A stretch of 64,000 nucleotides of DNA from Alligator mississippiensis (Eukaryota; Chordata; Crocodylia; Alligatoridae). Each line of letters opens with the position of its first letter. Positions within the stretch are counted from its first letter, which is position 1. Of the stretch, positions 3,415 through 20,060 are shown one piece after another. A program made the translations under genes and the position numbers. The notes below the pieces were generated by a model, which was not told the origin of the DNA, searched no databases, and was given only the letters and a program-made list of their open reading frames with translations. The DNA lies in the NCBI RefSeq assembly GCF_030867095.1, contig NC_081835.1, positions 47,909,892-47,973,891 on the forward strand. The letters are read 5' to 3'.

Positions 3415-3603
3415 GGGAACAGCTTGCTGTGTTCCGTGCTCTGGATGGACGAGCATATGTGGTAGATGCCTATTGCCCACACCTTGGGGCTAACCTTGCT
3501 GTTGGGGGCCACGTTGTAGGGAACTGCATTGAATGCCCATTTCATGGATGGCAGTTTCGAGGTGAAGATGGAAAGTGCATTACAATCCCATATGCTGAAA
3601 AAG
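3415..3603 (+). CDS. nvd: Neverland/DAF-36-type Rieske oxygenase, exon with Rieske domain (partial gene)
   Basis: This is the first visible exon of a sterol 7-desaturase family protein. In insects and nematodes the family converts cholesterol to 7-dehydrocholesterol at membranes. Seen here: an open 189-bp exon between an AG acceptor (3413-3414) and a GT donor (3604-3605), entered after one base of a codon and left in phase 1. It encodes the Rieske [2Fe-2S] ligands as Cys-x-His (CPH, codons 3474-3482) and Cys-x2-His (CPFH, 3534-3545), separated by 17 residues, within the context VDAYCPHLGANLAVGG. The order EQLAVFRALDG before the ligands fits the family. The N-terminal part (about 100 residues, usually with a membrane anchor) must lie left of the window. 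Five further exons continue it, at 8542, 13733, 14204, 17232 and 19899. Family assignment is firm. The exact sterol reaction in this animal is inferred from relatives. Confidence 0.93.
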
Positions 3604-3699
3604 GTGACTCCCTAACTCTGCAGTAAGAATTTGTGGAAATAACAGTATCCTGATGGAGAACACATTTTCCTATGGAAATGGAACCATTGCCCTGTCTGT

Positions 3700-4422
3700 C
3701 AGGGCTGTGTGAAGTGGGCCCTATTTGATTTGGGTTCGGATTTGGCACGAATCAGGGACAGTGATTTGATTAGTTGATTCAGATCACTGTCCCTGATTGA
3801 ATTCAGCCAAATCTGAATCTGAAGATTCAATGCTGATTCAGAAAATCAGCGATTCGGACATAGACACAGCTTTTAAGTGTTTTTTCTAGATAACTCAAGG
3901 TACCAGTCTTCCACGTGCTCAGCGGCAAACCCAGAAGTAGACCTGAAGTACTTCCAGTACACTTCCGGGTCCCCCAGGGACTGTGCTGTGCCCCCCCCCC
4001 CCCCTTGGTGATTGGCCCCCAGACCCAGTAGGCAACAGTTGCTGAGCCAGGGGGTGTGGCCCCCCCCCCCCCAATGTGCTCTCCAGTGGACCCAGAAGTG
4101 GACTAGAAGTGCTTCTGGTCCACTTCTGGGTCTGCTGCCGTGTGCATTGGGGAGCCCCCTGTACTTCTGTGGGACACTGCATGCACCCCAGAATTGCAGC
4201 TTTTGTGAGCCACCTGCTATTTAGAGGTATGTAGAAAAAAACACTTAAAGCTGTGTCTACGTCCAAATCTTCAAATCTCTCCGAATCGATTTTGGAGGGT
4301 TCCAATTTGATTTGGGAAGATTAAAAGGTCCTCTGATTTGATTCTGATTTGGAGATTTGGCCACTGAACTGGGCTGAAACTCCACTGAATCGAATCGGGG
4401 ACCGAAGATTCGCACAGCCCTA
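3700..4422. mobile_element. hAT-like inverted-repeat element, copy A
   Basis: The ends are near-inverted (CAGGGCTGTGTGAA on the left; TTCGCACAGCCCTA on the right) and are flanked by a perfect 8-bp direct repeat, CTGTCTGT, at 3692-3699 and 4423-4430, as expected of hAT transposons. Long arms rich in GATTCG/CGAATC motifs enclose a second inverted pair (ACAGCTTTTAAGTG near 3869, CACTTAAAGCTGTG near 4243) and a C-rich core with a run of 17 C. There is no transposase frame. It shares sequence with the copies at 12945, 14679 and 48069. Confidence 0.85.
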
Positions 4423-17534: not shown

Positions 17535-18142
17535 TAAGAACATAAGAACTGCCATTTAGACTAAGTACAGACAGTCAAAAAGCCCGAGGCTGAATCAGTT
17601 CAATCATTGCAGGTTAGTTTGAGCCGCATAGATTGAACCAATAAGCTAGTGAATTGACATTTACTTTTGATTCCGGAAATGCAGCCACATGTCTGCATTG
17701 GCCCGGGCAAGAAGCTTGGGGGGGGGGGGGGGCACTAGAGCACACCTCTTTGCTCTGCTGGAGCAGACAGCTTGGGCCAAGGCTAGCCCACCCACCCTGC
17801 AAGGGAGAGTTTGCATGGGAGATGCAAAGCATCCTGGGATGCTGGGGGACTGTAAGTTAACTTGAATCTGGAGGGGATCTTGGGCAGAAGTTCAATAAAC
17901 CGATTTAACCTAAATCAGCCAAGTCTGATACTACATCCATCCAGGTTTACCTTAAACTGGTTTCAGCCACTTTGAAAGCAGTTTATTTGTATTAAACTTC
18001 TGTCGTGTTACAGATTTGAACCGGTTTCTGGTCACTTACATCGGTTTATGTGTAATTTCTGTCCCTAGCTTCACTGGGTCAGACCGTAGATCCATCTTGC
18101 CCCATATCCTGTGTCACACAGTGGCAGAGTAGATACTGAAAG
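17535..18142. mobile_element. Sauropsid interspersed repeat interrupted by a MITE
   Basis: ATAAGAACATAAGAACTGCC (17536) and CTGGGTCAGACCGTAGATCC (18074) are the two parts of a common reptile interspersed repeat that normally lie adjacent. Between them is about 500 bp (17560-18069) with terminal CTAAGTACAGACAG and TTCTGTCCCTAG, roughly inverted, and internal AAACCGATTTAACC/AACCGGTTTCTGG. This reads as a MITE inserted into an older repeat. The family name is not assigned. A run of 14 G lies at about 17717. Confidence 0.55.
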
Positions 18143-19898
18143 GGAGGGCGAACTGAGTATGACCACTGGGTATGGCAGGTATGACCAGTACCTGAATGTA
18201 GATTACAAGGAACCCTATTTCCCCACCTACTTTGGTGCTGCTGCAGGCAGGGACGATGTGTAGGGGGTGCACTCAGGTGGTGCATCCCCAGCAAAAAGGT
18301 GCCCAATGTTGGCGGTGCCTGTGGGCAGTTGCTGCTCACCACCTTGCTGCTGGCACCGCCAGTGGTGTCTCTGAGAGGTCCATGATCACCCCTGGCTGCC
18401 GGCAGTGGCTGCAAGTGGTCACCAAACCCTGGTTGGTGCTAGTCACTCCTCCCACCGCTGACAGTGCTGGCGGCATCTGCAGGAGCTCCCTGCTCACTGC
18501 CACCATGCTCCCTTGGCTGCAGGTGTGCGGGTCAGCCCTGTAAACATTGCTAGAAGGCTGAATGCTTGAAGTTGCTGGGCAGCAGAACTTTTGTAGGAAA
18601 AGGTGCTTGTTGCTGCATTTCTTGTCCGTGGCAGAATGGGACGTACCCACCTGCACAAGTGTCCTTTTCACACCTATAAACAGTTTTGGATTCTGCCCTG
18701 TCCTCTGGCAAAACACAAGGATGTTTCACCAAGTAAGGGCAATCTCAAAATAAAACCATTGTGTGTGCCAGGTAGTTTCCCATTTTGAGTGGGAAACCAC
18801 ATAGCAGCTAGAAACATGGCTGGTGGCACTCTTGAACACACCCATCCTTTATGATTATATATCAAAGCAATGTGGTCCAGTAAATACTCATTGTGCACAA
18901 AAGGGTTTATTTCATTTGGAAACATCCTCGTAGATTTGCCTGTGCAGCTGTGATTGTACCTGCTAGTGATGTGCTAGCCACCAGCCCTCTTGCTGCATTT
19001 CCACCATGCTACTCTGATGCACACCTCAGTTCAGGCAGACCTTTGACTATTTTAAAGAGCCTTCTCTGTTCTATGATGATGGTTTATCATTTGCTTTGGA
19101 AACTTCTTGCTTGGGGCTGCCAGAGGTTGACCTTGTTAACTTCATAGGGTGTCTGTAGCAGATGGCATGTTGCGTGTGAATGGGCTGTCAATACACAAGA
19201 TTGGTTCCATTCCACTCAATTATACTCAAGAATTCAACTCCGCAGCACCTGGAGTGTAAGAGAGAGGGTCAAAAATCGTTTTTCCATTAAATATTATGAT
19301 AGGGAAAGTGCCTTGAGGTGGTAGGAATCCTCAGAGCCTGGGTGAGCAAGTACCTCCCTCACTGAAGGGAGACTTAATGAAGTGAACGGGGATGAAATTC
19401 TCTCTCAGAATCCCTGCAGATGTCCCCAGCTGTGGTAGAACACAGGACAGGTCTTCTACTCCCACCCAAGCTCCTCCTCAGCATGCCATACGAACCTGCT
19501 CTGGCAGGGACATGTCCAAAGGCACTGCCACTCAGGGGCATCTCTCTGCAGCTGTTCTCAAGCTCTCAGTCTCTAATGTACTTGAGTGGCTGCTGGGACA
19601 ACCCTGGAGCCACCACACCAGTGTGCTAACCTGGTTGAGTGCATATGGGACTGGGTGGATGGGGCCTGCCTGGGACCCTGGCCACCACCACGGAGTAGAT
19701 ATGCCCACAGAGCCATTGTTTGGATGTTTTGTAAGCTAATAGCCGCACAAAAACTGCCCAGGCTTGGAGACTTGCTAAAAACCTCTTTGGAACCAGTGTC
19801 TTCTCTCAGGACTTGAGCTTTGCTGGTCTGTGAAGTAGTATGCATGGACATCTAGTTTAAATTCCTTTTTTAAGACAAGTCTGCTTCTTTTCCCACAG
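18143..19898. other. Intron sequence, no gene seen
   Basis: No exon is supported; open frames here are short and resemble nothing I recognise. The stretch ends in the strong acceptor CTTCTTTTCCCACAG (19884-19898) of the terminal Neverland exon. Confidence 0.6.
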
Positions 19899-20060
19899 TT
19901 TGAGCGTGATATAACAATATGGAATAACAAGCAATATCTTGCTAAACCTCTACTGGTAAAAGAGGATTCTGCAATTCAGAGGTACAGGCGCTGGTATGCT
20001 CAGTTTTACAGTGAGAAAAGCAAGAGATTCACGTTCCAGAAGGATGGACTGGACTGGTAA
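19899..20060 (+). CDS. nvd: Neverland/DAF-36-type oxygenase, terminal exon with stop
   Basis: This 162-bp last coding exon encodes FERDITIWNNKQYL, then RYRRWYAQFYSEKSKRFTFQ and a TAA stop at 20058-20060. The Asp-x3-Trp-Asn-Asn-Lys and Arg-Trp-Tyr-x-Gln-Phe-Tyr elements are the conserved C-terminal signature of the family. The six visible exons total 953 bp and give about 316 residues, compared with roughly 420-460 for complete family members, so only the N-terminal exon(s) are missing. Confidence 0.94.
   Translation, partial: FERDITIWNNKQYLAKPLLVKEDSAIQRYRRWYAQFYSEKSKRFTFQKDGLDW

Follow-up and report, generated by a model that had tools for sequence, protein, structure and literature searches.

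Does the American alligator carry a working sterol desaturase of the Neverland/DAF-36 (NVD) family, and is such a gene out of the ordinary in an amniote? The question is raised by a 64,000-nucleotide stretch of Alligator mississippiensis DNA (NCBI RefSeq assembly GCF_030867095.1, contig NC_081835.1, positions 47,909,892 to 47,973,891 of the forward strand), hereafter called the window. A first reading made from the letters alone (the sequence-only reading) had proposed an NVD gene of six exons with matching phases and no stop codon. Splicing and translation of the window DNA bore out the coordinates of every exon. The joined exons gave one frame of 316 amino acids (aa) with consistent phases and a single stop at its end; AG acceptors were present at all six exons and GT donors at the five that precede another exon. 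All six are on the plus strand. The first, probably exon 2 of 7, lies at 3415..3603 (acceptor tgatgtgcag, donor gtgact) and encodes the Rieske domain with Cys20-x-His22 and Cys40-x2-His43. It is followed by what are probably exons 3 (8542..8720; acceptor ag, donor gtagga), 4 (13733..13858, with the iron site Glu126, Asp130, His133 and His138), 5 (14204..14323) and 6 (17232..17408, with a KshA_C-type domain), and by the last exon (19899..20060, stop included), which holds a FERD motif with Asp267. Because the exon at 3415 opens at the second base of a GGG codon, that for the Gly of an 'LGEQ' motif, at least one upstream exon is needed and the gene is incomplete within the window. The presence of introns rules out a retrocopy. 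Open reading frames (ORFs) for reverse transcriptase (RVT_1), presumably of the CR1 type, were present in the first two introns found (11126-12814 and 5855-7387, plus strand, 562 and 510 aa, respectively).

The family to which the product belongs was examined among the best 120 of 1601 matches, the relatives being used as protein sequences. The closest of the matches listed was the 'cholesterol 7-desaturase-like' protein of Alligator sinensis (P0001, E = 8e-223), identical at 315 of 316 residues and differing by an Arg at position 152, where the window product has His152. The Gavialis protein aligned over all 316 aa with 93% identity, and the other 118 had 64-80% identity with a query coverage of at least 96%. 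After Gavialis came turtles, birds, coelacanth, amphibians, fish and sharks; annotated members in the matches listed were from birds, turtles, tuatara, squamates, amphibians, fish and sharks. No named mammal occurred among these best 120, four rows of which are without a name. All 120 carried the Rieske and KshA_C domains, and those with a name were mostly called cholesterol 7-desaturase or DAF-36. The same architecture was confirmed in the window product above the Pfam cut-offs (PF19298 KshA_C, E = 9.7e-32; PF00355 Rieske, E = 3.8e-17). Given the P0001 match and both Pfam domains above cut-off, the identity as a Neverland/DAF-36 Rieske oxygenase is, on sequence grounds, not due to chance.

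The nearest solved structures by sequence were those of bacterial KshA (best E = 4.6e-35). KshA is the oxygenase of 3-ketosteroid 9alpha-hydroxylase, a soluble bacterial protein that hydroxylates C9 of ketosteroids and does not desaturate C7-C8. Its structures (PDB 4qdc and 2zyl) have the two-domain Rieske oxygenase architecture and the iron-site motif in common with the window product, whereas its gene is bacterial and lacks introns and the window gene, at a vertebrate locus, is spliced from six exons. Nearer at hand is the Xenopus laevis protein P0021, which is 73% identical over all 316 aa and has identical metal ligands. It differs in being 455 aa long, with an N-terminus that is hydrophobic by eye and for which the corresponding exon is not within the window, and crocodilians diverge from it at six conserved positions. 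In PMC7425431 an X. laevis enzyme of the NVD family, perhaps that of record P0021, is termed cholesterol 7-desaturase. The assignment to Neverland/DAF-36 made by the sequence-only reading is thus upheld by the homologues, the Pfam domains and the relation to KshA, the named top matches being mostly labelled as NVD and not as a different Rieske family.

The metal ligands of the product were intact, as had been noticed from the sequence alone. The Rieske ligands are C20-P-H22 and C40-P-F-H43, and the iron site reads Glu126-x3-Asp130-x2-His133-x4-His138. All 121 aligned rows retained Cys20, His22, Glu126, Asp130, His133, His138 and Asp267, while Cys40 and His43 were each retained in 120 of them. 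Asp267, which the sequence-only reading did not mention, corresponds in the alignment to the Asp of the FEQD motif in KshA and is presumably the third ligand of the catalytic iron, as in the KshA structures. A structure model made with an alignment of 58 sequences had a predicted local distance difference test score (pLDDT) of 71.6 and a predicted template modelling score (pTM) of 0.71; the model without alignment (pLDDT 32.7) was unusable. The E-x3-D-x2-H-x4-H pattern also matches E230, D234, H237 and H242 of Caenorhabditis elegans NVD, as given in PMC7609953.

By analogy with the family, a reductase would hand electrons to a [2Fe-2S] cluster held by Cys20, His22, Cys40 and His43, from which they would pass via Asp130 to the mononuclear iron at His133, His138 and Asp267. 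This iron would, with O2, remove the hydrogens at C7 and C8 of cholesterol, giving 7-dehydrocholesterol. A membrane anchor may be encoded by the missing first exon. The enzyme might also contribute to the supply of provitamin D, and a vitamin D role of alligator NVD, as put forward by the sequence-only reading, can likewise be supposed; the ecdysteroid-like sterol handling suggested beside it found no support in the analysis.

The descent of the gene was studied by maximum likelihood in a tree built from 52 of the 121 rows, with supports taken from the unrooted tree. In tuatara P0091 the final 31 columns were masked because its C-terminus is non-homologous. Crocodilians (support 100) formed the sister group of birds (96), followed by turtles (78), a species-like position within vertebrate NVD. 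Measured from the node shared by the sauropsids, the tips lay at a mean distance of 0.22 in crocodilians, 0.16 in turtles and 0.36 in birds. The crocodilian value lies between the other two, and the NVD protein is therefore not fast-evolving overall. The neighbouring gene is ZNF618, which is convergent with NVD, tail to tail. NVD and ZNF618 were also found on contigs of equal size in A. sinensis (1526714), Strigops (12307978), Rhea (15144788) and Numida (10368520), which suggests, as judged from these sequence records, that the linkage is conserved across the four. We therefore consider it likely that the window holds the alligator orthologue of an ancient vertebrate cholesterol 7-desaturase, vertically inherited, lying tail to tail with ZNF618 and most likely a working Rieske oxygenase.

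As a proxy for a codon-based ratio of non-synonymous to synonymous rates (dN/dS), neutral drift was simulated on the window coding DNA (2000 runs, transition:transversion 2:1, no indels). The divergence used, d = 0.078, is 2 x 3.9e-10 per site per year x 100 million years; PMC4263362 gives 3.9e-10 per site per year as the neutral rate in crocodilians, and PMC4299795 puts the alligator-crocodile split at 97-103 million years ago. Alligator and Gavialis, the latter represented by a gene prediction with a possible bias to an open frame, differed by 21 aa, and the simulated neutral mean was 48.6 (95% 36-61). None of the 2000 runs had 21 changes or fewer, and the frame stayed free of stops in 4.9% of them. 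At d = 0.05 these values were a fraction of 0.02 and 14.8%. Because of the 21 differences against 48.6 expected, and because few neutral runs remain stop-free, NVD is probably constrained between Alligator and Gavialis, by a purifying but loose selection with a ratio of about 0.43. For this pair the simulation argues against a dN/dS near 1.

Several observations weigh against a working, vertically inherited enzyme. For an enzyme under constraint, about 0.43 (21/48.6) is a high ratio, and it rests on the assumed neutral rate and date. A row for A. mississippiensis NVD was not among the best 120 of 1601 matches, though the ZNF618 of this species was found. In Natator and Chelonia mydas the contigs with NVD and ZNF618 are unequal in size, perhaps because they come from different assemblies. 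No enzyme assay of a crocodilian NVD was found in the literature. Two further points concern the N-terminal exon and a set of crocodilian changes at conserved sites, and these are taken in turn.

A profile of 100 N-terminal segments from relatives, run against the 2736 six-frame segments of at least 15 aa in the 64 kb, did not find the N-terminal exon there; its best match, at 25326-25556, had E = 3.9 and was unrelated. A control profile of 91 rows, from which nine bird N-termini had been removed and one bird (Penelope) kept, recovered all nine at E <= 4.1e-23. Only 3.4 kb of the window lies upstream of the first exon found, and the hydrophobic anchor and the PPxYPNGWYRxLDS segment may lie beyond it. 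The PNGW motif is absent from the models of A. sinensis and Gavialis too, whereas 102 of 118 other relatives carry it after Y or F. Among the 16 non-crocodilian models without PNGW, 14 are 304-360 aa long and apparently truncated. P0001 begins with 39 aa that lack PNGW, are by eye unlike other NVD N-termini and are absent from the window; going by this sequence, the annotated 5' end of crocodilian NVD (P0001 residues 1-39) looks doubtful. The N-terminal exon either lies more than 3.4 kb upstream, or may be hidden because GC-rich first exons assemble poorly, or has been lost.

Changes at conserved sites were counted per clade, because counting them sequence by sequence puts poorly sampled groups at a disadvantage. 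In 120 rows, the window row being excluded, 11 clades were scored for columns that the remaining sequences conserve to at least 95% and from which the majority of the clade departs; galliforms and suboscines are nested within the birds and geckos within the squamates. Crocodilians had most changes of the 11, with 6 of 129 conserved columns altered: A128G, L137V and P140S in the exon at 13733..13858, S178A and R203K in that at 14204..14323, and H292Y in the last exon. Birds had 3/132, suboscines 2/126, geckos 2/128, caecilians 2/129 and polypterids 2/128; turtles (1/127), galliforms (1/127), squamates (1/133), and sharks and rays (1/127) had one each, and salamanders none (0/126). Three of the six fall within the nine conserved columns of loop 126-141, beside the iron ligands (hypergeometric P = 0.004, for a stretch chosen post hoc). 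All six are common to Alligator and Gavialis. In the 118 other sequences S140 and Y292 did not occur, A178 occurred once, G128 and V137 twice each and K203 four times. Single non-crocodilian sequences exceeded six changes (P0099 and P0113 with 10, P0091 with 9, P0034 and P0111 with 7) or equalled them (P0061 and P0096). What is distinctive in crocodilians is that the changes are common to the clade, not their number per sequence. That the iron-site exon was sped up in crocodilians alone is not clearly supported, as its identity was 0.59 between crocodilians and turtles and 0.69 both between crocodilians and birds and between turtles and birds.

The missing exon and the altered columns could be signs of decay. 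On the stem of the crocodilians constraint would then have eased and the first exon disappeared, and the six exons would be a young unitary pseudogene kept open by slow mutation. Beside the N-terminal exon not in the window and its motif missing from the A. sinensis and Gavialis models, this account draws on the 6 of 129 columns against 0-3 changes in ten other clades, on the rough ratio of 0.43 and on the slow crocodilian neutral rate. Against it, the six exons in the window are free of stops and frameshifts, the Gavialis model aligns across all 316 aa, all metal ligands are retained and the 21 differences fall well under the neutral expectation, evidence that is weakened to the extent that the Gavialis prediction favours an open frame. 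Moreover, the models without PNGW include those of turtles, birds and geckos whose kin carry it, which suggests gaps in models or assemblies and not exon loss. We regard a decaying gene as unlikely. A related reading, which we judge rather unlikely, joins the six changes in a remodelling round the catalytic iron on the crocodilian stem to a possible loss or replacement of the anchor exon. The outcome would be an enzyme with a changed substrate or a changed location, or the beginning of a loss that mammals carried through.

An active enzyme with a shifted specificity would account for the changes in another way. The crocodilian loop ENGADIAHLNAVHAS, which stands in place of ENAADxAHLxxLHxP, would reshape the substrate pocket, and the main substrate or product may differ. 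The concentration of three of the six changes in the iron-site loop is in its favour, as is their presence in both Alligator and Gavialis, lineages that split ~100 million years ago. On the other hand, the changes are mild, and the loop can vary, since Val, Ile and Ser stand at the places of 128, 137 and 140 in the aligned KshA. At four of the six sites the crocodilian residue is also seen in one to four of the 118 other sequences, and the model has a pLDDT below 50 at residues 165-171 of P0001, which overlap the iron-site loop. We regard a shift in specificity as quite improbable. A gene of a different Rieske family, for instance a KshA-like gene acquired horizontally from bacteria, or a contaminant, has KshA as closest solved relative on its side and almost no chance of being right: horizontal transfer and contamination are ruled out by the vertebrate homologues (every named match among the best 120 of 1601, four being unnamed), the species-tree-like placement and the adjoining ZNF618, and a spliced structure of six exons, its introns harbouring reverse-transcriptase ORFs, also speaks against them.

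The orthologous, vertically inherited NVD gene is not a novelty. The sequence-only reading had treated an NVD gene in an amniote as a surprise, and this did not hold. The list in PMC7609953 includes NVD of Anolis, Podarcis, Pseudonaja and chicken, the last credited to Yoshiyama et al. 2006, all of the same family in amniotes and none from a crocodilian, and PMC4967820 places NVD orthologues 'in vertebrates, except mammals'. In PMC7425431 human melanoma cells were made to express the enzymes of Xenopus and zebrafish, and mammalian cells are stated there to have none. A text search of PMC1382263, on gene families lost in mammals, met none of the terms tried, and a literature search gave, among the titles listed, no paper on crocodilian NVD. 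A novel amniote gene is ruled out by the homologue list and the published chicken and reptile NVD. Nor does retention imply selection particular to this lineage, as had been proposed; ordinary inheritance accounts for it. As a crocodilian representative of a known vertebrate family it is ordinary; the changes at conserved sites and the first exon not found raise questions of minor weight. Vertebrates other than mammals carry NVD as a rule and mammals are exceptional in lacking it, which corrects the impression of an unusual amniote gene. The iron-loop changes and the missing first exon pose a small, testable question on relaxed or shifted sterol metabolism, and the ZNF618 neighbour offers a synteny anchor for how and when mammals lost NVD.

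The 3' part of ZNF618 occupies the minus strand of the window between 32812 and 53190. Its last coding exon (32812..34323) encodes a hAT-type dimerisation domain, with 503 aa identical to ZNF618 of A. sinensis and A. mississippiensis. Further pieces were recognized by protein match near 35605-35727 and 53140-53190 and, for an A. mississippiensis isoform, at 39933-40013. Within the same region two minus-strand ORFs, 41159-41542 and 41892-42758, resemble by eye the reverse transcriptase of the NVD introns, in broken form; a Pfam search with 41159-41539, which is only part of the region 41159-42758, gave no match. Between the two genes, 4.3 kb beyond the NVD stop and 8.4 kb beyond that of ZNF618, the plus-strand translation of 24399-24455 shares 17 consecutive identical residues with the anomalous C-terminal end of P0091, the NVD model of tuatara. 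This segment is probably a deeply conserved non-coding element that was misread as coding in tuatara.

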